Part shown: positions 1 to 32,824 of the stretch, piece after piece
How positions within the stretch are numbered: the first letter of the stretch is position 1
Layout: each line of letters opens with the position of its first letter
Source of the DNA: Boothiomyces macroporosus
Taxonomy: Eukaryota; Chytridiomycota; Chytridiomycetes; Rhizophydiales; Terramycetaceae
Reading direction: 5' to 3'
DNA: 32,824 bases
Assembly: GCA_027604185.1 (NCBI GenBank)
Contig: JADGKB010000135.1
Location: 1-32,824, forward strand
Notes under the pieces: model-generated
The model's database searches: none
The model's input: the letters and a program-made list of their open reading frames with translations, nothing else
Told to the model about the DNA's origin: nothing
Position numbers and translations under genes: made by a program

Positions 1-915
1 ACATGACGGTTGGCAGGCCAACAGGGATGGCGGCAATGGTGATAATAACGGTTTGCTTGAGCGAGTCGAGGAAAGAGTTTCCCTTCGTGGTCATAGAGTC
101 GATAAAGATAATGAGGGCCATAACAACAGTGATGATGACCAGAAAGTCGCCGATGGTCTTGATGACCTTCTGGAAGTGTCCTTCGTCGTTGGTCATGGAG
201 ATCAGGTTGGCAGCGCGGCCAATGTAGGTGTGGATACCAGTCTTGGTGACGACACCCATCATCTGGCCCTGCTTTACGATCGAGGAGGAGTACGCAATGG
301 CGTCCTTCCCTTTAGAGACAGGGAGCGATTCGCCCGTGAGAGCAGCCTGGTCGATTTGCAAGTTTCCTTCAGTGACTTCGCCAGTGGCATCGATACCCAG
401 CAATCTGGCGTCGGCTGGAACAATGTCACCCAGTCTGAGAATGATGATGTCGCCAGGGACCAAAAGAGCAGCTTCGACTTCCACCAATTTGCCGTTTCTC
501 CAAGCCCTAGTCTTCAGGGCAAGGGTGTTCTTCAGCGCATCCAAGGCAGATTCAGCCTTGGCTTCTTCGTGGAACCCAATGACAGCGTTGGCAATCAGAA
601 CAAAAACAAGGATACCAAAGTCGATCCAGTTGCCCAAGATGGCAGACAGGATCGTAGCGATTTCCAAAAGGTAAGAGATGGGGCCCAAAAAGTAGCCCAA
701 GAACTTCAAGTAAGGATTCACCCGGACTTCAGGCAGCTCTATAGTTAGCAACAGTTACCATTAGGGCCAAACTTTTCCAAACGAGCAGCAGCTTCCTCGT
801 CACTTAACCCTTTGCTTGGGTCAGTTTGAAGCAGTTTTTCATATTCAGCATCAATTTCATCCGCAACTTCTTTATGTTCAGTATTAGATACAGGTTTGTT
901 GTTGGCTCCGGCCAT
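1..915 (-). CDS. Plasma-membrane H+-ATPase A (P3A type), 5' part, runs off the left edge
   Basis: Proton-pumping P-type ATPase that builds the plasma-membrane proton gradient. The ATG at 915 opens an acidic cytosolic N-terminus. A 20-nt intron (739-758, GTAACTGTTGCTAACTATAG) interrupts the conserved N-E-LPEV stretch. Removing it joins the two frames exactly where paralogues B and C have an intron. The rest covers TM1-TM2, the actuator domain with LTGES, TM3 and the TM4 motif PVGLP, where the window ends before the DKTGT phosphorylation site. Codons are strongly C/G-ending, unlike the A/T-ending copy B, which suggests high expression. Upstream (916-1293) is its promoter region. The family call is firm; the proton specificity is inherited from the family. 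Confidence 0.93.
739..758 (-). other. 20-nt spliceosomal intron in H+-ATPase A
   Basis: GT at 758, AG at 739, with a CTAAC branch-like motif five bases before the terminal TATAG. Splicing restores the codon for the Glu of the conserved N-E-LPEV motif. The intron sits at the same codon and phase as those at 3963-3982 (copy B) and 32065-32086 (copy C), whose internal sequences are unrelated. This makes it the clearest single proof that ultrashort introns here are real. Confidence 0.93.
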
Positions 916-1293
916 AAATACAAAGATAGATAATGGCGATTTTTCTTTTCTATTTATAGTGGTGATGGCTGTAAATCTGCCCCCTACACTGAAACTTTGG
1001 GCGTACAATGGGGGAGATGAAATTAATTTATCGCTTGTGCTACTAGCGGTATTTACTCTTGATATCCACAGATAAGCAAGTTAAGCATAGGACCGTTGAA
1101 AATTCACAGAAGAATTAATTCTCCACTTTGCATGAATAGTTTTACTCTAAAAATTAACAAACACAATGGAACAATAATGTGACAAACACAAGAGGTTCCA
1201 TCCCCTCGCCTCAACAATGCAAATTTCCGAATAGTCGAACAATGTCATCAAACATTTTTATTGAAAAACTTTTAACAAATCTATCGTGCTTTG
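916..1293. other. Intergenic region between H+-ATPase copies A and B
   Basis: A 378-bp AT-rich stretch upstream of copy A and downstream of the copy B stop codon. It must hold the copy A promoter and the copy B terminator. I see no supported gene, tRNA or convincing repeat. A pyrimidine-rich tract lies just upstream of the copy A ATG. Confidence 0.6.
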
Positions 1294-4103
1294 TTAGGGC
1301 GAGCTATTATTTCCTTCTGAATTTCCCGCAGTGAGAGGTTCCATGCTTTTAGACATTTTTATATTTTTTGCCTTTCCAAAAGCATTGGCGGCCGAGATAA
1401 CCAAAAGGGTTCTACGTAGCTTCTTAAAGTTCTCGTGTACTCTTTCCTTTGTATGCTTCATATTTAATCGTTTTTGCAACTTTTGCTTGTGTTTCTGGGA
1501 AGGCCAGAGTTTAGATACAAGCTCAAATGACCAATACTTGAACGTGAAAACTTTGACAATATCAAGTAGCATAAACACGACTCCAGATACCGCCAATATT
1601 CCAAAGGTCCAACCTGCACCAATTGGATAGGCTTCCAACCATGAAGGGCCAAACAATGTAATGACACCAGCAACAATCTGAGTACCGATAATAGCAGTCA
1701 AGAAAGTCCAAGATGGCATTGATTTCCACCACCAAGTTGATAATCTGGTAGAGAAAATTACAAAGTGAGGACACGATGAGATTTGCAAATACATTGCAGT
1801 TTGCACAATTTGATGATTGATTACATCAGAAAGTACAGGTAGACCATTTTGATCTAGTGGTGGTGGAAATTGGAATGGATACACACTTTTTAGAGTAAAA
1901 AAGTGGGCAAAAGAAACGACCATCAATAGGAATCCCAATATAAACGACAGAGTCAAAAGTTGTCCAAGTCTCCACTTGTCTGGTCTCTTTGAAATTCGGG
2001 CATGGTCAACAGAAATAACCAGAGTAGCAGCATCATTTAGAACGGCGATTAATAGAATCAATCGATCAGGGAGAGCAAAGTTGAATGCCAGGATAGAGAT
2101 GAAGAAGAACAACAAAAAGTGGATAGTGGAAGCAATACGGTAGAGAGCATATGATCGCATACGTTGGAAGATAGCTCTTGAGCATTTGATACCATCAACG
2201 ATAGTAGACAAACCTTCAGCGAGCAAGACAATATCTGCAGCGGAACGAGCAGCTTCGGTACATCCTTCAACAGCGATACCAACATTGGCTTTCTTCAAAG
2301 CTGGAGCATCGTTTACACCATCACCTGTCATACCAACCAAGTATCCACGCTTTTGCAACAGTTCGACAACTCTGAATTTGTGTTCAGGAATAACGTGAGC
2401 AAATCCATCAGCCTTTTCACATCTGTCAATGAGAGCCTCCTCATCTAGTGAACTATCAACCAACTTGTGAGCATCCAAAATGTTTCTTTGCATTCCAAGA
2501 CGGAAAGCGACTTCTTTAGCAATGATTTGTTGATCACCAGTAATCATCTTTACGTTCACACCCATTTCTTCACATTCCTTGATGGTAGCACCAGAATCTT
2601 CACGAGGAGGATCCAAAAGAGAAATCAGACCAATCAATTCAAATTTGTTACAATCTGCATCAACAGTTCGGGCAACACCAAGAGCACGGAGACCACGACC
2701 GGCCAAATCGATAATAGCATTACTTCCATCTTCATGACCCCCACATATCTGGATTACAACTTGCGGAGCCCCTTTGATCACACGAAATTGTTCCTGTGTA
2801 TCCAACTTTGTAACTCTCGCTTCCGTATATTTACTGGTAGGGTTGAATGGAATAAAGTTGGTGACTTTATACCCAGGAATTTGATGATCTTGCACTTCTC
2901 TATCACGAAGAAGCGGAACTTGTTGTTGAGCAGTCCTACGTACAGTACTTTCAATCGGATCTTGAGCTCCATGTTCGGAAGAGAAGAAAGAGTTTAATAG
3001 CAAGTCTTCAGCAGTATATTTTTCTCCGGTTCCACGTAAATTGTCAGTACTATTCCCTTTATACGCCAAAAAAGGCTTATCAAAGGATAGTTTGTTCATC
3101 GTCAAAGTTCCTGTTTTATCCGAACAAAGGATAGACACAGAAGCAAGCTCTTCGATTGCCGTGAGACGCTTAACAATCACTTTCTTCTTTGCAAGTTCAG
3201 AGGCGCCAACGGCCATAGTAACAGACATGACTGTGGGCAGCCCGACTGGAATAGCGGCAATGGTGATAATAACAGTTTGTTTCAGCGCATCACCGATACT
3301 TTGCATCTTGTCAAATTTGGCATCAAAAAATATTATCACCGCCATTACAATCGTGATAATAATTAAAAAGTCGCCAATAGTTTTGATAACCTTTTGGAAG
3401 TGACCTTGCTCATTAGTTATTGATATTAGGTTTGCCGCACGTCCAATATACGTGTGTATACCAGTTTTAGCCACTACAGCAAGCATAGCTCCTTGTTTAA
3501 CAATCGAAGAAGAGTAAGCCAACACTCCTTTGCCTTTAGATACTGGAAGAGATTCACCAGTAAGAGCAGCTTGATCAATTTGCAAGTTTCCTTCCGTAAC
3601 TTCGCCAGTTATTCCAACTCCCAAAAGTCTGCAATCCGCAGGGATAATATCACCAAGACGTAAGGCAATTACATCTCCGGGTACAAGCAAGGCAGCTTCA
3701 ACTTCGACAAGCTTTGCGTTTCTCCAAACTCTAGTTTTTAAAGCAAGTGTATTTTTCAGCGCATCTAGAGCCGATTCTGCTTTGGCTTCTTCGTGGAACC
3801 CGATAATTGCGTTTGCGATTAAAACGAATACCAATATCCCAAAATCTATCCAGTCACCAAGCCAGCCAGACAATATACACGCTATTTCAAGTAGATATGA
3901 TATAGGTCCAAGAAAATATCCCAGGAATTTCAAATATGGATTCGCTTTAACTTCAGGGAGTTCTAAATTAGTATTTAAATACCGTTTCTACCAAATTTCG
4001 CCAAACGCTCAGCAGCTTCCGCATCGGTTAGTCCTTTGAGCGGGTCGGTTTGAAGTAACTCCTCCAACTCTGGTTCGATTTCTTCCAACTCTTTCTCGCC
4101 CAT
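1294..4103 (-). CDS. Plasma-membrane H+-ATPase B (P3A type), complete
   Basis: Complete proton pump of 929 residues once the 20-nt intron at 3963-3982 is removed; the rest is one open frame. Visible motifs are LTGES in the actuator domain, PVGLP in TM4, CSDKTGTLT with the phosphorylated Asp near residue 322, MITGDQ, and TGDGVNDAP in the hinge. TM6 reads IAVLNDAATL, with the Asp that family work identifies as the proton-binding carboxylate. The C-terminus is basic, ends around 1294 and is longer than the last TM segment, as expected of an autoinhibitory tail. The start MGEKELEEIE at 4103 gives an acidic N-terminus like copies A and C. Codon use is A/T-ending and its sequence is the most diverged of the three. 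It shares a 214-bp divergent promoter region with the deubiquitinase. Confidence 0.95.
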
Positions 4104-4317: not shown

Positions 4318-5891
4318 ATGTGGGAGGCACTTGATTCCATGCAGCTAATACAAATAGGAGTAGCAATTATAGCTGGGATTGGGATTTGGAAATATACGCA
4401 GCCGTCAAGCGGATCCAGCGGTTCCGGTAAAAGGGTCAAGTATCCCGGGGGACTATATAACGATGGAAACACCTGCTTTATGAACAGCGTTATTCAAGTA
4501 GACAGTAGTTAATGATAGGCGCTGGTGTCGATGCCATCGTTAATTGCATATCTGGAACAAACAAAAGACGAGAATTTAAAAGTTACATGTGCAATGTTAT
4601 ATTTAGCTGAAGGTGTTTCTCACTAACCTAGCATTGAAATTCGATTACGGAAAGAGAGCGCTTCGTCCGCATGTCCTCACTAATGCTCTTTGCGGGCAGG
4701 GAAACAAGCATCTTTTGGGCTATCAACAGCAGGACGCCCAAGAATTTTTCCAGCATGTTTCAACTTTGCTTTCAACCGAAGGAAAGAAAGGCACTAGACT
4801 TTCGCTGGACATCTTTCAGTCAAGTGACAATGACCTGAAATATTACTTTGTGGGCAGGGAATGCACAATTTCGCGATTTAATTCTGGGAAAAGTCCATTA
4901 ACAGGATTGCTGGCAAGTAGAATCACCTGCATGAAGTGTGGATACAAAGTAACATCAATTAATACCAGAGCCCATTAAAGCATGACACGTTTGACAATCT
5001 TTCTTTGACTATCCCTGCCCAATCAGGGTATACGTTAAAAACATTGTTAAGAAACTACACGTCTCCAGAAATCATTCAGGGATTTATCTGTGATAAATGC
5101 ACCATGATTGCAACACGAGCATCTCTTGAGAAAAAGAAGAATACTGTGGAATCTTTTCAAAAGGAGCAGATTACTGTACCACAGAAAACGGAGCCTGTCA
5201 AAGCGAAAAAGAAAAAGAAAAAGAAGAATTCTAAAGTCAGTCCTATTTCGAGTCAAAGAGTTCCTGGTATGGATCTGCCGTCAAAGATCAAGTTTCTTGA
5301 TGATGCAATATCTCTTGGGAAATTCGATGTTGATTTCGTAAGTTGGAATTTTAATTTTAGCCAAAAGAAATAGAAAAGACAAAGATCTATGCACCAGTTT
5401 CGAAACAGGTTTCGATTGAATCTGCCCCTCAATGTCTGTGTTTGCATATGCAGCGGTCCATGTATCTCCCATCTGGTCATCTAATTAAAAATAATGCTGC
5501 TGTGAATTTTGAAGATACTTTAGATATTACTGATATGATTTTACCGCCAATACCCCTTAAAGCCTTAGAGAAAGATTCCATAAAAGAAACCCCACAAGAT
5601 GTGCAAGAATTTCCAGGGATTGAAGCTGTTAAACAAGTGCCGCGAATTATCTTGAAACCCAAATTACGTTTTATTTATGAAGTAGTGGCAGTTATACTGC
5701 ATTATGGTCATCACGAAGCAGGTCATTTTGTTACGCTCCGAAAGATTAAGCACACCACAGAAAATGGAACAAAAGATATTTGGTATAGAATATCAGATGC
5801 GACAATTGATAGAGTAACTGATGTAGAAAATGATGTGTTCTTGCACGGAAGCCAGTACGCTTATATGATATTTTATGAACGCTTAAAATAA
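4318..5891 (+). CDS. Membrane-anchored ubiquitin-specific protease, USP30/Ubp16 type
   Basis: Peptidase C19 deubiquitinase of 496 residues after removing four introns (4498-4518, 4613-4631, 4949-4968, 5338-5360; 21, 19, 20 and 23 nt). An N-terminal hydrophobic segment (residues about 10-26) precedes the catalytic core, as in USP30 and yeast Ubp16, which sit in the mitochondrial outer membrane. The Cys box is GNTCFMN with Cys53, and a QQDAQEFF box follows. Zinc-ribbon-like CxxC pairs occur (CMKCG, CDKC). The His box is GHFVTL with His442. After WYRI comes Ser465-Asp466, so the third catalytic residue may be Ser as in USP30. A lysine-rich insert lies near residues 250-270. Every intron restores a family motif, for example VIQ-ALVSMPS and GYK-SPLKHDTF. 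Location is inferred from family. Confidence 0.92.
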
Positions 5892-6010: not shown

Positions 6011-6721
6011 ATGACAAAGGGCAAAGTTGCACAATCGCAAAAGTCTAAATTAGCGCCAAAGACCAAATCAGCCAAGGTAGTTAAAAAGGTGGCTGCTCCA
6101 ACTAGAGGTACAAGTCGTTAATCCTAGTCACTACGCGTAGTACCGCTGCTTCAACTAGCAATGTATTGCAAAAGAAAGGCAATTCAAACTAACCATAGTC
6201 AAAGAAGCACCAAAATCAGAAGCTGCACCAGCAAAGAAAAAGGATGCTCTTGAAAAAGCACGTCCAACTGCTGGATCCAAATCTAGTCCAAAGAAAACTG
6301 TTGCTAAAGCAAAAACCACCACGGCTTCTCCTAAAAAGACTGAAAAGAAAGTTGCGGAACCAAAGAAGGAAAAAGTAGAATCGGCAAAAGCTGATTCCGT
6401 AAAGAAAGCGGTAAAGGTAGAGTCTGCAAAGAAGCAAGGAAAGGAAGCCGTTAAAGTGGACTCGCCAAAGAAACAAACCAAGGCGCAAGTTAAAGTATCT
6501 TTGCCAAAAAAGACTGTCAAATCGCCAGCTAAAAGTGTCAAAAAGACTGTGATGAAAAAGGTGCCAGTAAAGAATGGCAAGGCAGGATGGGTTTCTAAAA
6601 AAGTAAGTGAACCAGGAATGGCTACTAGAAGCATGCGTAGTGGTAATGTAGATTAACCAGAGGCAAAAAAGTATTAAAAGTGGTTAACCAAATCAAAGCC
6701 AAGGGAAAATCTAAAAAATAA
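6011..6721 (+). CDS. Lysine-rich, histone-H1-tail-like chromatin protein
   Basis: A 216-residue protein made almost entirely of Lys, Ala, Ser, Val and Pro, with SPKK-type motifs (SSPKK, ASPKK, DSPKK) like linker-histone tails that bind the DNA minor groove. No winged-helix globular H1 domain is present, so it resembles tail-only H1 proteins rather than canonical H1. Three 20-nt introns are needed: 6108-6127 (GT-AG), 6179-6198 (GC-AG) and 6643-6662, which must use the second AG of CCAGAG because the first leads to an early stop. After splicing it ends in a basic tail at 6721. It is convergent with the RRM gene, 58 bp away. The role in chromatin is inferred from composition only. Confidence 0.8.
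6179..6198 (+). other. 20-nt GC-AG intron
   Basis: GCAATTCAAACTAACCATAG starts with GC instead of GT. It keeps a perfect CTAAC branch-like motif and the TAG end. Without splicing, the lysine-rich frame stops inside it; with splicing, the frame continues as KK-VKEAPKSE. No GT donor nearby gives the same frame. Confidence 0.75.
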
Positions 6722-6779: not shown

Positions 6780-7988
6780 TTAAAGTGTTTTATATCTGGA
6801 TTCATGGTCTGAAGATGACGGAGGATACTCATCTTCAGCTGCAGTGGCAACAGCATCTTCCGAAGCCCAAGTTTGTTCTTGGTTGTTTTCCGTTTTTGAT
6901 TCCTCTTGTATATAATTTGGATCATAAGGAACTGCCATCATTGGATATGGTGGCATCATATAATAATTAGGATATGGAGCAGGTGAATTTCCCCAAGACA
7001 GTCGAATATTTGAACCGCCTACCATCAATCGAAACTTACCAATATTAACCCCAGCCAGTTGCTGAATAGCCATTTCAGCACTAGAGTGATACTGATATGA
7101 CACAAATCCGCATCGCATACCCGGAGGGATTTTTACGTTTAATATCTCGCCAAATGGAGAAAAATGTCTAGGGTTAGATTTATAATACGAGTAAAGTTCT
7201 TCCTCAGTTACATTTGGAGCCAAACCTCCCACAAATACAGTAGTATTATTAGGATCATAGCATACTGGAGGATACCCGTATGCGTAAGCTGGATAGTGCT
7301 TCCCTTGGACAGGTGAAGTAGGACTAATGGGGACCATCCCGAGTCTATTTTTTGGTGTAGCTACAGAAACTCTAATAGGTCTAGATCCGCTATGGTTAGT
7401 GTTAATTCTACCATATTTTCCCCTTCATTTCTACCATGGCATTTTGTTGCTCCTTTTCGTCGCTGAAGCGAACAAATCCGTATCCCTTGGATAATCCCGT
7501 ATTAATATCAGTCACAACTTTTGCGGATCGGACAGAGTTGTATTTTGATTGAAAAAGGTTCTATGTTAGAAAAAGGTACTAAAAGCATCAAGTCGGTAAC
7601 TTCCGAAGACAAATCTCCAACAAAAACAGAGTATTCCGGTCCCGTCTGAGGTAGGCCGCTTTGGTTAAAGAGAGTCTTGCCTGAAGATTCCGCTGATCCC
7701 ACCAGTTGCCCAGTTGAGCTTTAAAGTTCGATTAGTTCCTGGAATCAGAGTTCCATTCATATTGTTCAGGTAGTTTTGGGCTGATTCGTGCGAAGAAAAA
7801 TCAACGAAACAGTAACCAGCAGACTGTTGAGTGAACTTGTCCCTGATTAGCTTTACGTTCACAGTTTCTCCAGTTAGCGTATACCTATGTGAGCCAAGCG
7901 AATACCAAGTCTGGCGAATAAACGCTTCGTCCATCCATACATCCAAATCCCCCATGTAGATGGTGGTCTTATTGTGGTTTGTCGTCAT
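6780..7988 (-). CDS. Three-RRM RNA-binding protein, Nam8/RBP45/TIA-1-like
   Basis: RNA-binding protein of 360 residues with three RRMs (about 8-85, 103-175 and 215-290) and a Pro/Tyr/Met-rich tail. RNP motifs are visible: IYMGDL and AGYCFVDF in RRM1, VFVGDL and KGYGFVRF in RRM2, VFVGGL and CGFVSY in RRM3. This order and the linker RPIRVSVATPKN match the Nam8/Csx1/RBP45 family, which acts in splicing or mRNA stability. Six introns fit: 7885-7905, 7681-7702, 7561-7579, 7390-7411, 7168-7188 and 7019-7039 (21, 22, 19, 22, 21, 21 nt). Three of them have no stop and a length divisible by three, so they are supported by family alignment rather than by frame. The 7885-7905 intron is the least certain. 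Confidence 0.9.
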
Positions 7989-8422: not shown

Positions 8423-9499
8423 ATGAAGTATCTGTTGATTTCAGCAGCGCACGCTTATATTTCATTTACTCAAGTTCATGATGATCCAAGTTGCTCACAG
8501 TCGTTCAATGCGGATCAATTGGCGGATTTATACTATTTAACATCTGTGTTTAAACAAGTTGCTGCAACTACTGGAGCTCCAGGACCACTAGGGGAAAGTG
8601 CAGGAAATGGACCACCACCTACAGGGCAAAATCGTCCTCCGCCTCCACCATTAGCAAACGGAACCCCACCGCCAATAAGAGTATCAATGGGATGCTATCC
8701 ATCCATTTCTTATCCCGGAAACTTTGCATATTTCCTTCTAGATAGTCAAAATACACTGTCTTATTATGACAAGTGCACATTTGGTGACTGTTCTGTAGGA
8801 TGTAGTTTGATTGGAACGTCTTCCTATGCTCAAAATGCCTCCAGTTCGGTCCATTGTCTTCCTCAGAGCTACGTTCCTACTGTATCCCTGACCAAAAACT
8901 ATCGTCAAAAGTTTTATAACGCAGGACAAAATTGCAATGGGACTGTGATCTATTACGTTGATGTCCCCATCTATGACTCTTGCACTGCTATTGCGAACGG
9001 ATATGCGATTTCAACTCTAAATGGAAACGTACTGACCCAAAATTATTGTGCTGATAGTAAATGTACCAGTTGTCAGACATCAAAAACAATTAAGCCTTGG
9101 GAATTCAAGAATAGCTGCACTCTAGTTCAAGATGGAAACGGGCTGCCATTATTTAGCACAGTAGGTATGCTGGTAGTAAATGGGGTTGAAGCTCCTCCAC
9201 AATTGAATTCGACAACACCTGTACCGACAGCTACCGCAACCGCGTCAAGCTCTAATGATCAATCACCCTCCTCAAATGTAGTTATAATCAGTGTTGTTGT
9301 TGGGGCTGTGATCATTCTCTTGTTTGCTATCGCACTGCTGTCAGTCTTTTACTACAAGCGAAGGGCGAAAAAGCTTGACGAAAAGTTTGAATCTGTTGCT
9401 ATGCTTCCAACTGAGCCGCCATCTGTTGTTTCTGGAATGGACAGAGGGACGTATTTAATGTATCTTGATTCTGTTGATGAAAATGCCAAACACACTTGA
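8423..9499 (+). CDS. 12-Cys type I membrane protein, array member 1
   Basis: First of five tandem paralogues of a family I do not recognise. It has 358 residues: a short hydrophobic leader (MKYLLISAAHA), a Pro-rich stretch (about 50-88), an ectodomain with 12 cysteines, a Ser/Thr-rich stalk, one TM helix (about residues 288-312), a basic stop-transfer (YYKRRAKK), and a cytosolic tail ending GMDRGTYLMYLDSVDE. Shared ectodomain markers are GCYPS, YDKC, a Cys pair DCSVGC, DSKCTSC and PWEF. This copy has no intron, unlike members 2-4. Its N-terminal motif VHDDPSCSQS departs from the VNxPxCW of its siblings. Topology is inferred from hydrophobicity; function is unknown. A surface receptor or adhesin role is only a guess. 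Confidence 0.85.
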   Translation: MKYLLISAAHAYISFTQVHDDPSCSQSFNADQLADLYYLTSVFKQVAATTGAPGPLGESAGNGPPPTGQNRPPPPPLANGTPPPIRVSMGCYPSISYPGNFAYFLLDSQNTLSYYDKCTFGDCSVGCSLIGTSSYAQNASSSVHCLPQSYVPTVSLTKNYRQKFYNAGQNCNGTVIYYVDVPIYDSCTAIANGYAISTLNGNVLTQNYCADSKCTSCQTSKTIKPWEFKNSCTLVQDGNGLPLFSTVGMLVVNGVEAPPQLNSTTPVPTATATASSSNDQSPSSNVVIISVVVGAVIILLFAIALLSVFYYKRRAKKLDEKFESVAMLPTEPPSVVSGMDRGTYLMYLDSVDENAKHT

Positions 9500-9685
9500 G
9501 AGTTTTAGAATATACATATTAGTTTTTTATTTTGTCTTGTACCTGGGAAATTCTCTAGAATCTGGGATAGTCTCAACCGAAAGATCTTTGTGAAATCATC
9601 CCCAAGCTGGTCTGGTACCTTGATTTTGATTCGTTCAATTCTGCAAGCACAGATCCACACTATCAAAAAAATTTCGCACTTCAAA

Positions 9686-10812
9686 ATGCTTTTGTTCAAT
9701 TTGGTTACAAATTCGGTTATGGCGGATGTTTTTATAGCAGTAAACTCACCTGATTGTTGGCCCAGCCAAACCCTAACCCCCAAAAATGCTGATCTATTTG
9801 CCGATTATTATTATGTAGCTGCCCCAGTTATGAATTCAATTCAGCCAACAGCGCCAATTCTTAAACGCCAGGCTGGAAGTGGAAGACCTCCTCCTCCACC
9901 AACTGGAAGTGGGCTGCCCAATGGTGCAAACGGAGGGCCTGGATCTGGCTTTCCAGGAGGGAATCCTCCTCCACAAGGTGGTAACGGTTTAGGGATGCCA
10001 CCGCCAGTAACTATTGGATGCTTTCCTTCAGTAACAAATCCAGGCACTTACTCCAATTGGCAGAATACCTCTTCAGGACTACAGTTTCAAGATCAATGTA
10101 ATAGTGTTACCTGTGATACTGGATGTAAGGTTATCAGTTCTGTCTCAAATAAGTGTGGATCACCATATCAAGTGCCTGATCCAAAGCTTTCCTCCAGGTA
10201 ATTTACATTAACCACAGTCTAGTACAAAGCTACTACAAAAGAATGGATTCAACCTGTTCTACAACTTATGCCTCTAAATTAGTGGTACCAGTCTACCCAC
10301 AATGTACATCTTTATCAAACGGATTATTTGGAATTTCATTGATATCAAAAACAAGTGTGGTTCAGGGATTATGCAGCGATAGCAAATGTTCTGATTGCTT
10401 ACATTCTTCGTCAATTAAGGCTTGGTCTATTCAGTCAGTTTGTTCACAAACTGTTGACAGTTCGGGAAATTTCATTTACAACTCGGTTGGAGTACTAAGC
10501 CTTGGGAGTGCTTCATCTACAACAGATAATAGCACACTTACATCACAATCCAATCCTGCGTCTGTCCAAAATAGCTCCGGTGCTTCTGGACTATCAACCG
10601 TTGCAGTAGTAGTAATTGCTGTTTCTTGTGCGCTCTTCCTACTATCTGCTTTGCTTTTAATATACTTTTATGATATTCGAGGAAAGAGAAAGGCAAGAGA
10701 AGCTAGAGCGCTTGAAAATATCCCACTGCAATCTGAACCGTCTTCATATGTCGCTGGAATGGACAGAGGAACTTTTTTGATGTATTTGGACCGTGTAGAG
10801 AATGAAAAGTAG
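9686..10812 (+). CDS. 12-Cys type I membrane protein, array member 2
   Basis: 368 residues after removing a 20-nt intron (10198-10217). It starts MLLFNLVTNSVMA, a likely short signal, then VNSPDCWPS. A long Gly/Pro-rich stretch follows (PPPPP and GGNPPPQGG), then GCFPS, the VTCDTGC pair, and after the intron DSKCSDC and the remaining cysteines, 12 in total. One TM helix (about 310-335) and the tail GMDRGTFLMYLDRVENEK are conserved with member 1. The intron lies between cysteines 6 and 7. The ATG at 9686 is preferred over an upstream GTG extension. It starts 186 bp after member 1. Confidence 0.84.
10198..10217 (+). other. 20-nt intron splitting the 12-Cys ectodomain (member 2)
   Basis: GTAATTTACATTAACCACAG. 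It falls between conserved cysteines 6 and 7. Removing it yields SSSLVQSYYKRMDSTC, which aligns with the intronless SLTKNYRQKF stretch of member 1. Equivalent introns occur in members 3 (11356-11375) and 4 (12526-12546), but not in members 1 and 5. Confidence 0.88.
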
Positions 10813-10975
10813 GCAATAAAATAATAGTATAAAAATGGCGTGTAATGCTAATATGAACTAGTTATTTAAAAAGTATTCGTTTCTCTATCGACTGTGCTGG
10901 GTATTAACGCAAGGCGTTTTGACAGGCGAATACGAAACAGCCAGTTGAAACAGCGTGGCGATATTCTTTGACCAA

Positions 10976-11946
10976 ATGTTAATATCCATTCTGCTGTATA
11001 GAGTAAAAGGACAGATTGAGATTGGAGTAAACACTCCGCAATGCTGGCCCTCTCAAGCCCCTTATAATTCCTTTTCACAACAGTACACTTTGACAGTTTA
11101 CTATAAATCCAACAAGTCTAGCCCTGGGTTACCAATATCAATTACGCAAGATAACCAAACACAGTGCTTTCCATCCTTGACTACACCAAACACTTTTGCA
11201 TATATTCAAACGAATCCAGTCTCCAATGTATCTCTACTTTACGACAAATGTTCCGGTTTCACGTGCACAGAAGGATGTATAAATACTGGGCTAGCCAACA
11301 CTGTACCGTGCTCTCCGTATTCTTTTTCCAACCTCACATTCGCAAATCAATCAGCGTAGCTAAATATTAATCTAGATTGAAAAAGAGATATTTCGCTCCC
11401 CGTGATACGACATGCAACAGCACTGAAGCTTATTCAATCACTGTTCCCATATTTGATAACTGTACTGCAATTAATAGTCAGTTTGCAAAGTCAGTTTTGA
11501 CATCTACTAACCTGACACAATATCTGTGCAGTGACGCTGAATGCAGGAATTGTACCACTTCTACTACTGTGCAACCTTGGGAAATTAACACGAATTGCGA
11601 GCCAGTGATAGATTTGAATGGTAAAGTAATCTCAAGGGTAATCTCACAAGTGTTTTTGAAAAACCAAGAACCAAATCCGTCTCCTGGACCAACTGAAACG
11701 CAATTACCGTCTTCTAGTTCGCAAGGGATAAGTATATGGTACTATGTTATCCCTGCCATCATTATTGGAGTCGCGATATTACTAACCGCAACCTACTGCG
11801 GAGTAAAAAAGTATAAACCTTTGAAATTAGCTCTAAATAGAGATCGCGGGGTGTCTAGTCAGACTGAAGAGCAGTCTGGAGTGATGCTGCTTCAGTTGGA
11901 ATCCGTTTTGAGGGGATTCCCTACCGAAGTTGATGACATTGACTAA
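10976..11946 (+). CDS. 12-Cys type I membrane protein, array member 3 (tail degenerate)
   Basis: 316 residues after removing the 20-nt intron 11356-11375. The start MLISILLYRVKG is short and only weakly hydrophobic; then come VNTPQCWPS, CFPS, YDKC, FTCTEGC, DAECRNC and PWEI, keeping all 12 cysteines. It lacks the Pro-rich insert. One TM segment (about 255-275) is followed by KKYKP. The cytosolic tail has lost the GMDxxTYxMYL motif and ends ESGVMLLQLESVL-like with an acidic terminus, so it may have lost or changed its intracellular partner. The reading frame is intact. Confidence 0.82.
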
Positions 11947-12070
11947 TAAAGTAGACTTGAACCACGATCTAATAAGCTTACTCATAATTATTTGGAACCT
12001 CATTTTAATGCGCTTTGACTATGTGATCAAGAGCCGCTTTGACTTGGGAAAATTCTTTTTCAGAAAAAGG

Positions 12071-13159: not shown

Positions 13160-13360
13160 TTTTTTTGTTATTTTTAATATAAGCTATAGTAGAACTTGGC
13201 AGAGATTAATTTTACAGCCACGCTCGAGCTTCCACCAGATTAATGATTAGCACAGATGAGTAATGTGGTCGGATATGCAAGATATCTTCAGTATTAAACC
13301 AAAAAGTCCGACGTGGGAATACTCCACGTAATCAAGGCCCCGCTTAAACTTATACCAAAT

Positions 13361-20377: not shown

Positions 20378-21073
20378 TCATTCAGCAGCAGCGGACACAG
20401 ACCCATAGTCGGAAGTAATCATCGTAGACAAAAACTCAAGCTCTTTAAACTCTTTATCTTTTCTCTTTGTACTCTTTGGTCTCCCTCTTCGTTTATGCTC
20501 AACATCCACACAGTCATCTTTTCCTAAATGCTTGCATCTCTTACAGGGCCGATTAGAATCGCAGGCCAAGTGAGCTTTTTTACAGTGTACGCATGCCTTT
20601 CCCACATGCTTTGGTCGCTTTCTATTTGGCGAATGTCTATATTTCACAGTCTTTTCTATAACTGGCGAAGACTTTTGTTAGAATTAGTATACTTTTTCGC
20701 TAGGCAACGATGGGCATTCTTGGTTCAAGTAAGATCCTGGTGACACCAGTTCCAAAGACGAGCTCTGGAACCACAGGCTAGACGTATATCCAGTATACTC
20801 TTCCAGTGGGTAGTAATTTTGCCACTGCTGCTCATAATTTGTATAATTCGGAAATGGGGGGCTATAATACAAGGCATTGGTTTCTGGAGTCTCTGGAATG
20901 CATTCTTTGTTGATTTCTCTCTTGCATTCTTTTTCTGGAGTATCATTCAGAGTAATTCCAAGCTGGTTGTCCATAAATACTGATAGCTGTAGTGATGAAG
21001 GAGCTAACGGGTTATTGTAATCCAAGTCGTTTTCCAAGTCGTTGTGAGACGTGGAACCCAATCTAAAAGTCAT
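20378..21073 (-). CDS. Zn2Cys6 transcription factor with C-terminal zinc cluster and AT-hook-like motif
   Basis: 224 residues after removing a 21-nt intron (20672-20692). The binuclear cluster has spacing CX2CX6CX5CX2CX7C (residues about 154-181; CVHCKKAHLACDSNRPCKRC), similar to the acuK/ERT1-like group and early-fungal relatives. It is followed directly by RRGRPKSTKRK, an AT-hook-like basic patch. The first 127 residues are acidic and rich in Asn, Pro and Tyr, suiting an activation region. The cluster sits near the C-terminus, whereas most fungal Zn2Cys6 proteins have it near the N-terminus. Target genes cannot be told from sequence. Confidence 0.88.
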
Positions 21074-21512: not shown

Positions 21513-22224
<712 letters not shown>

Positions 22225-22982
22225 TTTTTAGATTGGATCTGTAATTGAAAAAAAAATTTACTGAACATGTCACACCAGTCACATTTCGGACTACAGTGAA
22301 TATCAAAAACAAGTTGGGTTTACTTGGATTTACTAGCTGTATTTTATCCGCCTTTCTATTGCGGTTAGGGTTATGAGTATGCGGGTTTAGTAGGTCCCTA
22401 ATGCTGTTTTTTCTGCTGCTACTACTTTTGTGATTCAGAGTAGTATTTTTGAATGACAGACAAGTTAAGCCTTGCTGACAAATTTGATTGGAGGAAAGGT
22501 CTGTCATATTGACAGTTCAAAGTTTCTGAGTGCTCAATTATATTATTTTATAGGAACTTGTCAAACTCTGGTCTCCAACTCTTCTCATTCGTAAACTCTG
22601 GTCTTCAACTCTTCTCATTCGTAAACTCTGGTCTCCAACCCTTCTCATTCGTAAACTCTGGTCTCCAACTCTTCTCATTCGTAAACTCTGGTCTCCAACT
22701 CTTCTCATTCGTAAACTCTGGTCTCCAACCCTTCTCCATTCATATTCAGCAGACAAAATAATTCTGAAAATTATCAGATCTCAATCTATACTTTTTAATC
22801 TTTCTTGAACCTGAATCATGCATCTAACCCAATCTGCCACGTGTAGTTTGCAAATACATTTAGAGAACTCGTATTGCTTGAAACATGCGATCCCTATCTT
22901 TATACCTCGCGTATCCACTAGTGAAACTTTTTGGACAAGAGAGGCTTGGAATTGTGCTTGAAAATCTACCTCAATCTGCAAA
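22225..22982. other. Long divergent intergenic region (Ran / VMP1)
   Basis: 758 bp, one of the longest spacers in the window. It holds the 30-bp minisatellite at 22563-22736. A minus ORF with ATG runs 22507-22214 (97 codons, Ser/Asn-rich), overlapping the Ran start. A second minus ORF runs 23068-22781 (95 codons), overlapping VMP1 exon 1 in antisense. Neither has a recognisable family. I treat the region as promoter sequence. Confidence 0.5.
22563..22736. repeat. 30-bp minisatellite, about 5.8 copies
   Basis: Units start at 22563, 22593, 22623, 22653, 22683 and 22713 (the last truncated). Each begins AAACTCTGGTC and ends TCTCATTCGT, with only C/T differences at two positions. The period is a multiple of three, so several frames stay open on both strands, but no frame has an ATG start. 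Confidence 0.97.
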
Positions 22983-24138
22983 ATGGAAAAAATCACCATA
23001 TGGAACTCGCCATTCTTAATTCTCAAATACTTTATTTTGTATTTATCCGACTCTATTATTTCAATCATTTTCAAATTATTTCAAAATTTAATCCAAGTGT
23101 CAATATTCGTATCGCTAATTATTGCCATATATATTTTATATTATACCGATGGCGGGCACCAGGAGGTACTCTTCACTAATTAAAAGACATTTCAAGTCGT
23201 AGAGGGCTTTGTGGTGTGGTATGGCTGGTGGGTTGGCTTGGGAATAGCTTCCTCGGTTGGGTTAGGAACCGGACTGCATACATTTGTACTGTTTTTAGCG
23301 CCGTTAATCGTTCAAACTACTGTTACAGCGTATGCGTGCCAATCGCTTGATTTCAAGACCCATGGACACGACAGGTATCTTGATTTAATTACAGCTTCAT
23401 ATGCCCAGAAAAACAAACCGGAAATATTACGATATTTAATATATTCGCAAAAGTCTTTTTGGAAACTACCTTTTGGGGGATAGGAACTGCGATTGGAGAG
23501 CTACCGCCCTATTTCGTTGCCAGAGCAGGTAGATGATTTGTAACACAGCCGCATTAGCTGGCCAAGACGACCCCGAATTTGCATCGATTGAAACAATATT
23601 AAAGAAAAAGAGGAAAGAACGAACTATCTATGAAAACCTTCAAGTTATGATGCATAGTATGATGACAAACTTGGGGTTCTGGGGTATCTTGATATGTGCA
23701 TCAGTATCCATTATTAATTCAGGTTCCAAATCCATTGTTTGATCTTGCAGGCATAATGTGCGGGCATTTTGGAATTCCGTTCCTCACATTTTTTGGCGCA
23801 ACATTAATTGGAAAGGCAATGTTTAAATGCAACATTCAAGGGTTTTCAATTGTGGTTCTATTCTCAAAAGACATCCTGGTGTTAATTAGAGAAACCCTGT
23901 CTGACAAGGCTCCCTTTCTTAACGAAATCTTTGGGTCTTTACTTGACAAGCTTGCCAATCAATACAGTACCACTCCTGTAATACATTACTAATCTAGAAT
24001 GAAACAGAACATACATCGAATTTCATTGCGTTAGGCTGGAATACTTTCTTGATAGGGATGATTGTGTATTTCCTATTGTCCACTATCGAAACTCTTGCTG
24101 TATCTCATATGAAATTTTTAAACAAAAAATCCAAATAG
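22983..24138 (+). CDS. VMP1: VMP1 (vacuole membrane protein 1, DedA-superfamily)
   Basis: 351 residues after removing five introns (23166-23186, 23375-23394, 23529-23548, 23704-23722, 23978-23997; 21, 20, 20, 19, 20 nt). Conserved stretches are [46 protein letters not shown] and [14 protein letters not shown], all VMP1 signatures. In animals and Dictyostelium VMP1 is an ER scramblase-like protein needed for autophagosome formation, lipid-droplet and membrane-contact homeostasis. Several TM helices are visible. The C-terminus KKSK fits a KKxx ER-retrieval signal and supports the spliced end. The start [17 protein letters not shown] matches the family N-terminal region. S. cerevisiae has no VMP1, which argues for an early-diverging fungus. 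Confidence 0.95.
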
Positions 24139-24357: not shown

Positions 24358-26336
24358 TCACATTTGTCTAAAGAATTTCAAATCGTATTTTTTCCACAAT
24401 TCGACCATATACTTTTTAATCTCATACATCAGCATATTCCTTCTCGCCATTCTTCTGCTGCCATCTTGGAAATTTCCTTTAAATGTAACAAAAAAGCTGC
24501 ATACTAATAAATGCGTGTGCTGCATTTCTTTGATATTGAGCGAACCAATGCTGATGAAATCTTTGGATTGTGAAGCGACAAACTCCTTGACTTTGGTTTC
24601 CAGTTCAACCAGCACTTCATGCGGAGTTTCAAAGTCTATTTTAGTTATATTTACCAACAGTAAATGAAATTTCATCCGATTGATCTGCAGATCTTCGTAT
24701 ATTTCCAATTGGTTCGGAAACTAGAGTTGCTACAATAAGAAAGATTTACATGTAGGTACGTAAAGTTTTTGTCCATCTCCGGTTCTTCTAAATACTGTAG
24801 TCAGCAAGTGAATTTCTTCAACAATCATCGTAACGCCTTTAATTACCACTCTATCTCCTATATCGTACGGGTGAGTAACAAACAAAAAGATGATGCTTTC
24901 AAATGTGGTTTTAGCCTGCGTCCCAAATACGAAACTAAGTGCAATGATGATACTGGTAAATGGCAGAACGGTGTTTAAATTAATACCGAATATTGGAAGT
25001 GAAAATAATCCGGTTAGTAGTAGCACAAATCCATAGATAAGACGGTTAAAATTTCCTAAAGCTTGCGAAACATCTCTCAGTGATTTTAGCAAGTTTCTTC
25101 GTTCTCTGTAAATCTTTTTAATTCCTCTCCTTAACGCTTTCTCATCAATATAACCAGTAGCATCCGGATCAAATAGCGCGAATGCTTCTTTAGCAGTCTC
25201 TACACTTTCAAAACACTGATAAAAGGTTGCGATTGTAATGTCGCTGCTGTCATTCAAAGACCGCCACAGTTTCTTTGACAGATTGATTGCATTCTTGTCG
25301 GAAATCAAGCTCAAGGTTTTCATTGTTTTTTTGTAGCTTGATCCTCCAATCTTTATGGACGAATCTTTGAATTCGCTGTTTGATATGGATGGTGCTGCAC
25401 CAACCGGTGATCCTGAATCGTCCCGTTTTTCATCAGTGCCTTCTCGTTCCAACTTTGATGTCGAACTGGTTTTCATTACTGAATTTTCAAGGTCGATCTT
25501 TACATCTGGCTTGAAATTTACTCTTTGGGTATTTTGGCTGCTATGAGCATCAAACATGTTTGCCAAAGCGAAATGCTTTATAGATAGTTTCAGCGTTTCG
25601 AGAATTTTGTTTGAAGCTTTGGATGCTTCAATTCTATCTGAATATGCTACATTGTGGAAATTGATTGCTACTGTAAAGACAAGCGTACCTACTGATATGA
25701 TAAACAGCTTTTGAAGGAAAAGTAAGATACACAATACATCTAATAGCATTAATGTTTGGGCAATTGCTAGCCAATACGGAACAAGGAGAAACTGCGCGAA
25801 TACAATGAAAAAGTACATCAAGACAAAAACCGACCCGAATGCAAGAGCCATCTGATACTTTACACTAGGCAAATGACCGAGATTTGTCCTCCATTTTTCA
25901 CTGACTTCCCCGTAGATAGCTGATATGAATGACACACAGAGCATTGGTGCTATTTTAAGAAAGTGCCAAAACATGACAATTGACATCCATGAAGCACTCA
26001 ACCACATTGACCTACCATTAGAGGTATTTACCATCGAACTATTTGCGGTTGTAGGTTCAGCTGCCCTTGATCAACTAAACTTTGATAATCCCAAATCAAC
26101 AGATTTGGAAGATTGTTTACATCAATCTCCACCAAGTAAACTGCTGGAAATGCCAATATACATGAAACTAAAATACCATTGACAATGAATGACGCCCATC
26201 CCCGATGCCTACTGCAACAATACACTTTTTTTGTTCGCTTCATTTCGGTTTCATCCAATTGGTCTTCCCCTTCGTAATCTGACTCATTATCTTGAATCTG
26301 CTCTTTTGCCTTTGGTGGTGCGCCTTTCCTCGGCAT
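24358..26336 (-). CDS. MscS-like mechanosensitive channel with EF-hand (Msy1/Msy2 type)
   Basis: 639 residues after removing introns at 26012-26031, 24730-24749 and 24636-24654 (20, 20, 19 nt). A charged N-terminus leads into about four TM helices, then a cytosolic EF-hand segment (FALFDPDATGYIDEKAL), two more helices including the pore-lining MscS segment, and the MscS beta domain (THPYDIGDRVVI ... GQKLYVPT ... NIRRSADQSDEISF). Fungal homologues in S. pombe are ER channels that limit Ca2+ rise on hypo-osmotic shock. Position 12 of the EF loop, usually Glu, is Ala, so Ca2+ binding may be weak. The two 3' introns restore NIRRS and SFTVDFETP. Confidence 0.93.
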
Positions 26337-26390: not shown

Positions 26391-27048
26391 TTAAATGGTA
26401 AAGGTCCAGTCCTGTATATATGGTCTATTGTATACTGGGTCACATTGCCAATGGAATGCATTGCTGCTGGACAGCAAGGTGCTTTGATAATCGGAGTTAG
26501 GCAGAGGCAGTTGGATAGAAGAAAGGCCTGCGAATGCCGTAGTGGGGATTATTTCATCCATTTCATAGTGCAGTATTGGCGTAGACCAATTCGTTGGGTT
26601 GTTTGAAGAAAGCGGTTGATCAAAAATATCCACTTCAATAGGGCTGTAACTACTGACTGGACTGACATAAGGATTAAAGCCAACTTTTTCTTTTTGTAAA
26701 ACTATCAATCCCTCCTTTTCGTTTGTAGCGAAAGTGTTATTTACTGTCTGTGGACTTGCCTCTCTTTCTATAGAACGTATTTTGTCTGTGGCATCTCCGA
26801 GCTTTCTAGAATGCGACGTATAATGCTGAATTAAAAAGGAGCTACCTGCATCATGTTGTCTCGCCTAGAAAACTTTGACTTGCATCCAGGAATGGGACAT
26901 GAATGGCTTTTCTCTCCGCTGTGTATTCTCATATGTCTAGCAAGGTGCCTTGGTTAGAGAGTTATTACCCGCTAGTTGAAAAGGTTGAATTACAGTCTGG
27001 GTGTAAACACAAGTGACGTTTAGGGTTCTTTAATCTGGAGGATGCCAT
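26391..27048 (-). CDS. C2H2 zinc-finger transcription factor A (two fingers, Msn2/Usv1-like)
   Basis: 205 residues after removing two 20-nt introns (26949-26968, 26826-26845). Two adjacent N-terminal fingers: CLHPDC ... HLARHMRIH and CPIPGCKSKFSRRDNMMQHY, joined by the usual HSGEK linker. The second matches the fungal stress-regulator type FSRxDNMMQHYxxH, which recognises GGGG-containing elements in Msn2-like proteins. The C-terminal 130 residues are Ser/Pro/Asn-rich and probably regulatory. The first intron cuts finger 1, the second follows NMMQ. Its paralogue at 30132-30469 has an intron at that second position. The stop codon is 54 bp upstream of the MscS start. Confidence 0.92.
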
Positions 27049-29372: not shown

Positions 29373-29936
29373 TTATCCATAGAACGGATCCCATTCTTCC
29401 TCGCTGTCTTGTGCCCTAATTTCTGCCCATTTCTTTTCCCTCTTTTGCCGTTCATATTCCGCATCATCAGTTTCAAACTCTTGTCTGCAAGAAGGACAAG
29501 TATTGTGCTAGATTAACAGTAGTTACCAGCTGCAGCCAAGGGACAATGCACTCACTATGGTACACATGCTTGCAAGGCAATATTTTTGAGTCTGACAAAC
29601 AGCTTTCCAAACAAATAGAGCAAGAAGCGGCAGAAGTACTACTTGGCAAGGTCTCTATAAATCTCTTTGAAGCTGGTGGTGGCCCTTTAACACTACATTA
29701 GCAATATATACTTTGCACTAGCTTCCTGGAACAATTGGTTTAATATATCATCCAGGACTTGGTTTGGTCCTTGCCGTTCTCTTAAGGATTCAAATATCGA
29801 AGAGACCATTTGGAAATTGATTTGCTGGTCAGTCATGAATGCAGATACATCCGGATTAACCAGGGTAGTGCTTGCCCTTGATTCTTGTATTCCATGCTCT
29901 ACTGTTGTTAACCCTGGTCTTACAGAAATAGCTCAT
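29373..29936 (-). CDS. RING-H2 E3 ubiquitin ligase (RNF126/RNF115-like RING)
   Basis: 167 residues after removing introns at 29902-29923, 29693-29711 and 29508-29526 (22, 19, 19 nt). The RING-H2 reads CSICLE ... LPCKHVYHSECIVPWL ... HNTCPSCR, with all eight zinc ligands; the third intron lies between the last His-containing helix and the final CxxC. An amphipathic region rich in Gln and Leu precedes it, and a charged tail EEEWDPFYG follows. Exon 1 holds only 13 coding bases. RNF126-type ligases ubiquitinate mislocalised or misfolded proteins; the substrate here is unknown. It starts 195 bp downstream of C2H2 factor B. Confidence 0.92.
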
Positions 29937-30031
29937 TGAAAAAAAGCTAAAATTTTTAAAGAGGATTTGGATATTCTTATTGGAAAGCTGGACAGTTTAA
30001 ATACACAGATATTTACACTTGGATATCCGGC

Positions 30032-30084: not shown

Positions 30085-30131
30085 TTGCTCCTCCAACAGA
30101 CAGGTGGTAATGGACAATGGATCAAAATACT

Positions 30132-30469
30132 TTATTGCGACAGTAATTGATGCACCTTGGCTTCAATCAATTCCCGATTGTCTCGTAGAAACTTTTCAAA
30201 AGTAGTATCATTCAAAAGCTTTTTTGAATGCGATCGGTAATGCTACATTAGAAATATCGCACCTGCATCATGTTATCTTTCCGAGTGAATATTGCTTGGC
30301 AAGACTGTATGGGGCAGTGATGCGTTTTACTTCCAGAGTGTAGTTTCATGTGTCTGGAGAGATGTGATGAAGTGGTAAACAGAGTCCCGCAATTTGGTAA
30401 TTTACAGTGAAAGCGCTTTTCTACAGTCATTAGGAAAGTTGAAAACTGACTGTATTTATTATTAATCAT
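30132..30469 (-). CDS. C2H2 zinc-finger transcription factor B (two fingers)
   Basis: 105 residues after removing a 20-nt intron (30243-30262). Two fingers, CKLPNC ... HLSRHMKLH and CPIQSCQAIFTRKDNMMQHY, are clearly paralogous to factor A. The intron after NMMQ is at the identical place, whereas the first intron of factor A is absent. The C-terminal region is only about 30 residues, against 130 in A, so it has little room for an activation domain. The start may be at 30469 or at the internal Met (30430) just before finger 1. The 30469 start lies 4 bp from a divergent ATG. Confidence 0.9.
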
Positions 30470-30473
30470 TTCT

Positions 30474-31576: not shown

Positions 31577-31894
31577 TCTGCATTCCTTATTACTGGCCTA
31601 ATTTGGGCTTTGAGAGGGGCCGTCATGAATTTGATTTAATAAATTGTTCCAGCTAGAATTTCAATGAAAACGAACCAGATAATCTCGTACCGCACTGAAA
31701 TTAGAGTGGTATGCTATTCCTATGAAAGCCAAGTCGGCCTAAATAATACCTATCGCCCTTGTAATAAAAAAAGTTCCCCGTTTCGCCACTCCGTTACACA
31801 AGTTTCCTTTTCCTACCGCATGTTGGGCGCTCATTTAAAAACTCGATTGCCCTTTGAATTTTCTTTAATTATCTGTTGTTTACTTATATCCTAA
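31577..31894. other. Intergenic region upstream of H+-ATPase C
   Basis: 318 bp holding the promoter of copy C. A plus ORF (31664-31894) without family resemblance ends right at the copy C start codon; I regard it as chance. No repeat or RNA gene seen. Confidence 0.55.
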
Positions 31895-32824
31895 ATGACA
31901 GGTGCATTCTTGCTTAACCATAGACGGTAACAAGGAGAAAGAAAACCACGATCCACACGCAGATGTTATCGATGACGAAGTTTTAAAGTTGATTCAAACT
32001 GACCCAAAGCATGGTTTGACTGACGCTGAAGTTGAAGAGCGATTAGCTAAATGGGGGCGTAACGGTAATCCTTAGTGTAACATTAGAATTGCCTGAAGTC
32101 AAGACCAACATGTACTTGAAGTTCCTTGGTTACTTTTTGGGTCCTATCTCTTACCTTTTGGAAATCGCAACTATTCTTTCCGCTTACTTGGGCAACTGGA
32201 TCGATTTTGGTATCCTTGTTTTTGTTCTGATTGCTAACGCTGTTATTGGTTTCAATGAAGAAGCCAAGGCTGAATCTGCCTTGGAAGCTTTAAAGAACAC
32301 TCTTGCTTTGAAGACTAGAGCATGGAGAAACGGCAAATTGGTGGAAGTCGAAGCTGCTCTCTTGGTTCCGGGTGATGTTATTGTCCTCCGTCTTGGTGAT
32401 ATTGTTCCTGCTGATGCTCAATTGTTGGGTATTGATGTTACTGGTGAAGAAAGTGATGCTGATTTGCAAATTGATCAAGCTGCCCTTACTGGTGAATCCC
32501 TTCCTGTTGCTAAAGGCAAAGGTCAAACTGCCTTCTCTTCTTCCATTGTTAAACAAGGTGCTATGCTTGCTGTTGTTACCAAGACTGGTGTTCACACTTT
32601 TATTGGACGTGCTGCCAACTTGATCTCCATGACCAACGACGAAGGACACTTCCAGAAGGTCATCAAAAAGATTGGTGACTTCTTGGTTATCATTACTTTA
32701 GCTATGGCTTTGATTATTATGCTTGATTCACTTATCCACAAAGGAAACTCTTTCTTTGATGCTCTTAAACAAACCGTTATTATCACCATTGCCGCCATCC
32801 CTGTTGGTCTGCCAACCGTCATGT
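31895..32824 (+). CDS. Plasma-membrane H+-ATPase C (P3A type), 5' part, runs off the right edge
   Basis: N-terminal 290 or so residues of a third proton pump. Exon 1 carries only seven coding bases (ATGACAG); a 22-nt intron (31902-31923) then leads to an acidic N-terminus MTDGNKEKENHD. A second 22-nt intron (32065-32086) is at the N-E-LPEV codon shared by copies A and B. It covers TM1-TM2, the actuator domain with LTGES, TM3 and PVGLP, ending at the same codon where copy A ends. Codons are mostly T-ending, but with patches nearly identical in DNA to copy A. Confidence 0.93.

Follow-up and report, generated by a model that had tools for sequence, protein, structure and literature searches.

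We have analyzed a complete contig of 32,824 bases (hereafter the window) from the chytrid Boothiomyces macroporosus (Chytridiomycota, Rhizophydiales, Terramycetaceae), whose genes are interrupted by GT..AG segments of 19-23 nucleotides (nt). These segments are almost certainly U2-type spliceosomal introns cut down to a 5' splice site, a branch site and an AG, and thousands of them appear to be present in the genome. The evidence comes from the segments themselves, their fixed internal spacing and wide occurrence, the proteins restored on their removal, their presence and absence among paralogues, and the spliceosomal genes of the organism.

The source assembly comprises 15.2 megabases in 216 contigs. 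Our sample consists of the window and 20 stretches of 10 kilobases from the 20 longest contigs, a total of 232,824 bases or 1.5% of the genome.

A length peak at 19-23 nt

Genes were modelled with a purpose-written gene finder, whose coding model is periodic and of fifth order, with 114 long open frames as its training set. In its first pass, GT..AG introns of every length from 10 to 300 nt were admitted on equal terms. This pass found 10, 17 and 10 of them at 19, 20 and 21 nt, against a background near one for each length. In later passes motif and length were re-estimated until convergence; the converged finder, with a 300-nt ceiling, returned 251 introns, of which 198 are 15-30 nt long (41, 85, 48, 17 and 5 at 19 to 23 nt), one is 10 nt, nine are 31-100 nt and 43 exceed 100 nt. 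With the learned weights and a ceiling of 60 nt, 227 introns were placed in 122 gene models, 82 of them intron-bearing. In this set 213 of the 227 introns are 19-23 nt long, so that most have lengths in the narrow range, up to about 25 nt, that defines an ultrashort-intron genome. The original prediction had proposed a genome-wide measurement of intron length, and the peak at 19-21 nt is indeed found across the window and the 20 other contigs taken together.

Decoys show no such peak. With learning switched off and a 120-nt ceiling, nine decoy boundary pairs gave 10, 6, 9, 11, 10, 7, 8, 7 and 5 'introns' of 19-23 nt, compared with 41 for GT..AG. The signal is also visible independently of gene models. 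Measured from GTA to the A of YTAAY, with an AG required five or six bases later, the spacing gives 85, 56 and 21 pairs at 14, 15 and 16 nt against a mean of 5.29 (standard deviation (s.d.) 2.18) at 60-420 nt, and total length, counted with YTRAY, gives 54, 93, 46 and 16 at 19, 20, 21 and 22 nt against a background of 9.2 (s.d. 3.2). An excess of longer introns was not seen, with no GTA-to-branch distance of 18-420 nt above 13 pairs, although a thin, spread-out class would escape this test. GTAAG donors show a slight excess at most (0.95 pairs per length at 24-60 nt versus 0.69 at 121-420 nt), and GTAAGT donors give 0.14 versus 0.15 for the same ranges. Longer introns were modelled nonetheless, one of 262 nt in the window and another of 46 nt. 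Scaled from the 1.5% sample, window included, introns genome-wide would number around ten thousand in order of magnitude.

Six of the 43 sampled finder introns above 100 nt lie in the window: four merge adjacent genes, one crosses an RRM and one is the 262-nt intron. A run of the window without learned motifs chose many 'introns' of 100-300 nt, several of which fuse genes, and these were not accepted.

Intron grammar

For base composition we used the 197 introns of 18-24 nt in the sample. Position +3 is A in 91%, +4 is A in 59% and +6 is T in 59%; position +5 is T in 44% and G in 14%. G at +5 is not enriched (14.4% of 209 versus 13.6% of 3329 GTA sites at chance distances). The acceptors are TAG in 70%, CAG in 17% and AAG in 13%. 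A YTRAY branch motif was found in 141 of the 197, with its A at 14-16 nt in 131 and five or six bases before the end of the AG in 126. GT..AG ends with a branch motif at a fixed distance are characteristic of U2-type introns. The motif described in the original prediction, GTA, a branch motif and an AG about five bases on, was reproduced; its distance of 11-14 nt describes the start of the branch motif, the A itself lying at 14-16 nt.

Between the branch A and the AG, five or six bases would leave no room for a polypyrimidine tract, and the interval from GTA to the branch would accommodate the 5' splice-site helix, the branch helix and little else. We propose that an intron built on this plan, with a GTA(A) 5' end, YTRAY with its A 14-16 nt from G+1, and an AG (mostly TAG) five or six bases on, would be excised from the transcript in two steps, by way of a lariat whose loop measures 14-16 nt. 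U1 and then U6 would bind the 5' splice site and U2 the branch site, two sites that hardly any linker separates, and the 3' AG would be selected immediately downstream of the branch site. SMU1 and a rebuilt Isy1 N-terminus might perhaps relieve the steric difficulty that so short a distance from 5' splice site to branch creates.

An in-frame stop would be encountered on retention in 41 of the 49 introns whose length is a multiple of three, against 91 of the 148 others. Stop-free introns of such lengths are poorly detected by our finder, and detection bias is likely. Selection on introns through nonsense-mediated decay has been reported for Paramecium and is a possible cause here.

Introns in the window

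Gene models of the window contain 37 introns of 19-23 nt (9, 14, 7, 6 and 1 at 19, 20, 21, 22 and 23 nt). The gene finder supplied 24 and regional runs six; seven are motif-fitting segments tested for restored domains. The original prediction had counted 42 introns in this range (9, 16, 9, 7 and 1), a number close to ours; further motif-fitting candidates, for example 20672-20692, 23166-23186 and 6643-6662, lie in tentative gene models. The two exceptions to the 19-23-nt range mentioned there may be the 262-nt intron and a candidate of about 115 nt (18337-18451), which was modelled in one finder run while another split that gene instead. The finder also yielded candidates of 59 nt (at 6140) and 49 nt (at 11881). 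One finder intron, 7885-7905, was rejected because the frame continues through it as an RRM-like stretch. The features are as follows.

739-758, minus strand: 20-nt intron of H+-ATPase paralogue a, phase 1, after ..KFGPN; three paralogues share its position and phase but not its sequence
3963-3982, minus strand: 20-nt intron of H+-ATPase paralogue b, position as in paralogue a
32065-32086, plus strand: 22-nt intron of H+-ATPase paralogue c, position as in paralogue a
31902-31923, plus strand: 22-nt intron of H+-ATPase paralogue c, close to the start codon
4498-4518, 4613-4631, 4949-4968 and 5338-5360, plus strand: four introns (21, 19, 20 and 23 nt) of a ubiquitin hydrolase gene, PF00443 over residues 1-438
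6108-6127, plus strand: 20-nt intron of a lysine-rich protein gene, from the finder and a regional run
7019-7039, 7168-7188, 7390-7411 and 7561-7579, minus strand: four introns of a multi-RRM gene, two RRMs joined on removal; the gene may connect to another RRM upstream
10198-10217, plus strand: 20-nt intron of tandem paralogue S2 (cysteine-rich protein), alignment column 185, phase 2
11356-11375, plus strand: 20-nt intron of tandem paralogue S3, alignment column 185, phase 2
12526-12546, plus strand: 21-nt intron of tandem paralogue S4, alignment column 185, phase 2
15240-15258, minus strand: 19-nt intron of a large gene (14271-17948), from the finder and a regional run
17037-17055 or 17056-17074, minus strand: one 19-nt intron with two abutting candidates, from motif fit and the finder
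17243-17504, minus strand: modelled long intron of 262 nt containing a tandem repeat, from a regional finder run; plausible
18880-18898, minus strand: 19-nt intron, from the finder
22166-22187, minus strand: Ran intron 1, 22 nt, from the finder; spliced protein aligned with human Ran
21994-22014, minus strand: Ran intron 2, 21 nt, evidence as for intron 1
21661-21681, minus strand: Ran intron 3, 21 nt, evidence as for intron 1
23375-23394, 23529-23548, 23704-23722 and 23978-23997, plus strand: four introns of a VMP1-like gene, a 19-residue motif restored on removal
24636-24654, 24730-24749, 25668-25688 and 26012-26031, minus strand: four introns of an MscS-like channel gene, the same four absent from the NCBI protein
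26826-26845 and 26949-26968, minus strand: two introns of C2H2 gene a, motif-fitting segments tested
30243-30262, minus strand: intron of C2H2 gene b, placed between NMMQ and HY as is 26826-26845 in gene a
29508-29526, 29693-29711 and 29902-29923, minus strand: three introns of a RING gene, PF13639
31407-31428, plus strand: 22-nt intron of a short open reading frame with a weak gene model, from a regional finder run

The tandem repeat in the 262-nt intron has units of 35-38 base pairs (bp) and spans 17366-17495; a minisatellite of 30 bp in 5.9 copies lies at 22563-22741.

Restored proteins and paralogues

Removal of the introns was claimed to restore family alignments, and this holds for Ran, Prp8, U2AF65, MCM7, SMU1 and others. 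Without its three introns, Ran aligns with human Ran over residues 7-212 with no gap. A Prp8 piece of 1139 residues, freed of introns of 21, 21 and 22 nt, aligns with 1139 residues of the human protein at 2359 bits, and the gap-free stretch, checked to about residue 950, extends beyond all three junctions. SMU1, which has four ultrashort introns, is complete and scores 472 bits over residues 2-504. Short introns also lie within the aligned regions of H+-ATPase, U2AF65, MCM7, RPAC1 and the mRNA export factor Rae1. The Rae1 alignment has short gaps next to its last two intron junctions, and a 43-nt intron predicted at the cut-off 5' end of MCM7 is not trusted. In the VMP1-like gene the restored 19-residue stretch is what we take to be the VMP1 motif; PF09335 scores 27.8 bits there, under its cut-off of 33.9.

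Paralogues offer a further comparison. The three H+-ATPase genes carry an intron at one position and phase, between K(F/W)G(P/R)N and ELPEV, with unlike sequences of 20, 20 and 22 nt. Among five tandem paralogues, S1-S5 (window 8423-14260), the phase-2 intron at alignment column 185 is present in S2, S3 and S4 and absent from S1 (8423-9499) and S5 (13361-14260), where the alignment runs straight through; S3 and S4 were separated by hand from one merged gene model. C2H2 genes a and b have one intron site in common and another that differs. This pattern of shared sites and clean absences fits introns and not assembly errors.

Within the S1-S5 array, whose product is a cysteine-rich, probably single-pass membrane-anchored protein, the column-185 intron was gained or lost. 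The contig breaks off at both ends (1-915 and 31895-32824) within H+-ATPase genes, in a different paralogue at each end but at the same codon (..IPVGLPTVM), and identity between the ends covers only 16 terminal bases; the assembly probably broke within a gene family.

Spliceosome components

One full-length match to the U1 small nuclear RNA (snRNA) was found, with the 5' end AUACUUACCUGG. U2 snRNA is present in two copies (142 and 135 bits; GUAGUAUC), and U6 (62 bits) has its ACAGAG intact; the pairing regions of all three are canonical. The proteins found are Prp8, SF1, SMU1, Isy1, Cwc25 and U2AF65, the last with both RRMs and the C-terminal UHM. U1, U2, U6, Prp8 and the branch-site factors expected of a major spliceosome are therefore encoded, and the proposed check for losses among U1/U2, U2AF and SF1 found the U1 and U2 snRNAs, U2AF65 and SF1 in place. 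All components sought except RED were found, in a partial inventory that covered these three snRNAs, the proteins named above and RED. SMU1 is complete, but its human partner RED was not found. Two Cwc25 loci, on contigs C49 and C100, are identical across all 3111 bases and represent either a duplication or redundant contigs.

The N-termini of Isy1 and Cwc25

For Stentor it has been conjectured that loss of a glycine motif in Cwc25, together with divergence of the Isy1 N-terminus, avoids clashes with a tight lariat (PMC9505925). Boothiomyces Cwc25 starts MGGGDLNLKKSWHP, identical to the human protein, which implies that a change in Cwc25 is not needed at a loop size of 14-16 nt. Isy1, encoded on contig C39, starts MAPKTLAQKQE. 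In our alignment the start M(A/S)RN.EKAQSML is found in seven proteins (Gonapodya, Hyaloraphidium, Chlamydoabsidia, Dipodascopsis, Capsaspora, Cavenderia and Marchantia); the Boothiomyces protein has a rewritten start and those of Globomyces, Kappamyces and Gorgonomyces have degenerate ones, the four genera all belonging to Rhizophydiales. The alignment holds 12 proteins chosen by hand, not at random, from 120 listed matches, and one row is truncated. Among the 110 listed matches that start with M, 42 have the strict motif and 14 close variants (MAR.xEKS and similar), about 26 to 28 begin with an internal Met, and the remainder are truncated or aberrant.

A search upstream in the Boothiomyces Isy1 locus found no MxRN start. 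Two versions of the first Isy1 intron are possible, 49 nt in the model and 22 nt in our own reading, and neither restores the motif. Our Isy1 model and the corresponding protein of Boothiomyces sp. JEL0838 differ at one of 241 residues. It is conceivable, though we hold the idea only tentatively, that the Rhizophydiales spliceosome has adapted to lariat loops of 14-16 nt through a rebuilt Isy1 N-terminus, the part of the protein that extends into the active site, convergently with Stentor and with the Cwc25 plug kept. The link between Isy1 and intron length is a correlation, for which intron lengths were read in Boothiomyces alone of the four Rhizophydiales genera.

Public annotation and related genomes

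The spliced MscS-like protein (24358-26336) is 98% identical to the NCBI protein HK103_001378 of Boothiomyces macroporosus, which equals our model minus 11 residues near the N-terminus. As it otherwise matches the spliced model, the public annotation already removes the same four introns. A Terramyces sp. JEL0728 protein keeps those 11 residues; it does not have the 25 residues between the introns at 24730 and 24636, and it diverges near the intron at 25668 too. This is a hint that Terramyces also has ultrashort introns in its MscS gene, where the annotation seems to join one donor to the next acceptor. The Terramyces protein also suggests that exons in such genomes may be missed by any gene finder whose minimum intron length is set higher.

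Alternative explanations

Several points weigh against spliceosomal introns of this size. No YTRAY was found by our scan in 56 of the 197 introns; the U1 match, at 68.8 bits, is just below the Rfam cut-off of 69.5; and RED was not found with the Pfam models RED_N and RED_C, in a search that had no meaningful positive control, so that its absence is not proven. The evidence comes from genomic DNA. By one estimate the human B complex requires some 52 nt from 5' splice site to branch (PMC6692369), and the assembly path in Boothiomyces must accordingly differ. Finally, erroneous introns of 5-23 nt occur in about 2% of the core gene models of Fusarium circinatum (PMC5677156).

Of the alternatives, the one that survives best accepts the introns as spliceosomal and assigns them to a strongly reduced machine, like that of mikrocytids or microsporidia. 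The failure to find RED, the rewritten Isy1 N-terminus and the lack of a preference for G at +5 (14%), which suggests weak pairing at the 5' splice site, point in this direction; however, U1, U2, U6, Prp8, U2AF65, SF1, SMU1, Cwc25 and Isy1 were all found in our partial inventory. Mikrocytids, for comparison, retain 17-19 spliceosomal proteins and the U2, U4 and U6 snRNAs (PMC10245619). We consider a machine of this kind improbable. The segments could also be removed from DNA, in the manner of the internal eliminated sequences of ciliates, or be skipped by ribosomes with no RNA splicing involved. Evidence from genomic DNA would allow this, but GT..YTRAY..AG is a spliceosomal grammar and U1, U2, U6, Prp8, U2AF65 and SF1 are present; as no excess of longer motif-bearing introns was seen up to 420 nt, the spliceosome would otherwise have little to do, and we rate this explanation as very improbable. 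Least credible, to the point of being negligible, are artefacts of assembly or sequencing, or chance GT..AG pairs used by the finder to jump frameshifts and stops: the Fusarium figure and the introns that our own finder invented (7885-7905) show that such errors occur, but the sharp peak appears without gene models and not with decoys, paralogues share intron sites with different sequences, and the second Boothiomyces assembly gives a nearly identical Isy1 protein.

Comparison with known ultrashort introns

Genuine spliceosomal introns of this size have counterparts elsewhere, and those of Boothiomyces come near the smallest known from any organism. The original prediction had compared them with introns of about 20 nt in chlorarachniophyte nucleomorphs and shorter ones in Stentor, and the literature bears out both comparisons (PMC4035089, PMC9505925). 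In the nucleomorphs of Bigelowiella and Lotharella, introns start at 18 nt with 19 nt commonest, and sizes are narrow and introns many per genome, as in Boothiomyces (PMC4035089); the nucleomorph, however, is a relic endosymbiont nucleus, whereas Boothiomyces has a fungal genome of 15.2 megabases in which 20 nt is commonest. Stentor coeruleus, with introns of 15-16 nt, resembles Boothiomyces in that all snRNAs are reported, the branch position is fixed and the Isy1 N-terminus is not conserved; its commonest intron start is GUAAUU, and the position-by-position consensus in Boothiomyces is GTAATT. The Stentor branch A lies at 10-11 without a strong branch consensus, whereas that of Boothiomyces lies at 14-16 in YTRAY, and the Cwc25 glycine motif absent from Stentor is kept in Boothiomyces (PMC9505925).

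Mikrocytid introns, at 16-17 nt, are as uniformly tiny, but number 224, in an intracellular parasite whose spliceosome is reduced (PMC10245619). Encephalitozoon cuniculi (Microsporidia), a relative of fungi, has introns among the smallest in nature with strict motifs, said to be surpassed in smallness only by those of Paramecium and nucleomorphs; it has 37 introns and has lost more than 50 core splicing components, whereas our extrapolation for Boothiomyces is about ten thousand introns (PMC3629993). Paramecium and Nyctotherus introns are near 25 nt. A survey of 644 fungal genomes names Cryptococcus neoformans for its relatively short introns, with a mean of 63 bp; these are many, as in Boothiomyces, but three times as long (PMC8476143).

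Our literature search found, among the matches listed, no report of introns this size in a chytrid, although an earlier report in subscription papers or preprints could be missed. The suggestion that such a fungal spliceosome would be exceptional thus stands for fungi, as far as the literature was searched, but not for eukaryotes, given nucleomorphs, Stentor and mikrocytids. Ultrashort introns are already known; what is notable is the fungal host and a machine that is near-ordinary in the parts examined. So far as is known, this is the first ultrashort-intron case in Fungi, and it lies outside the ciliates, nucleomorphs and parasites.

Efficient assembly in human extracts takes a distance of about 50 nt from 5' splice site to branch, and SMU1 and RED become essential when this distance is short (PMC6692369). 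In Boothiomyces a fungal spliceosome, ordinary-looking in its examined parts, apparently handles 14-16 nt as a matter of course. The Cwc25 change proposed for Stentor appears not to be needed here, while the Isy1 change proposed alongside it recurs; if the proposed adaptation is true, Isy1 and not Cwc25 would be the part whose change permits tiny introns. With sequenced relatives available for comparison, ideas on how splicing proceeds on minimal introns become testable.

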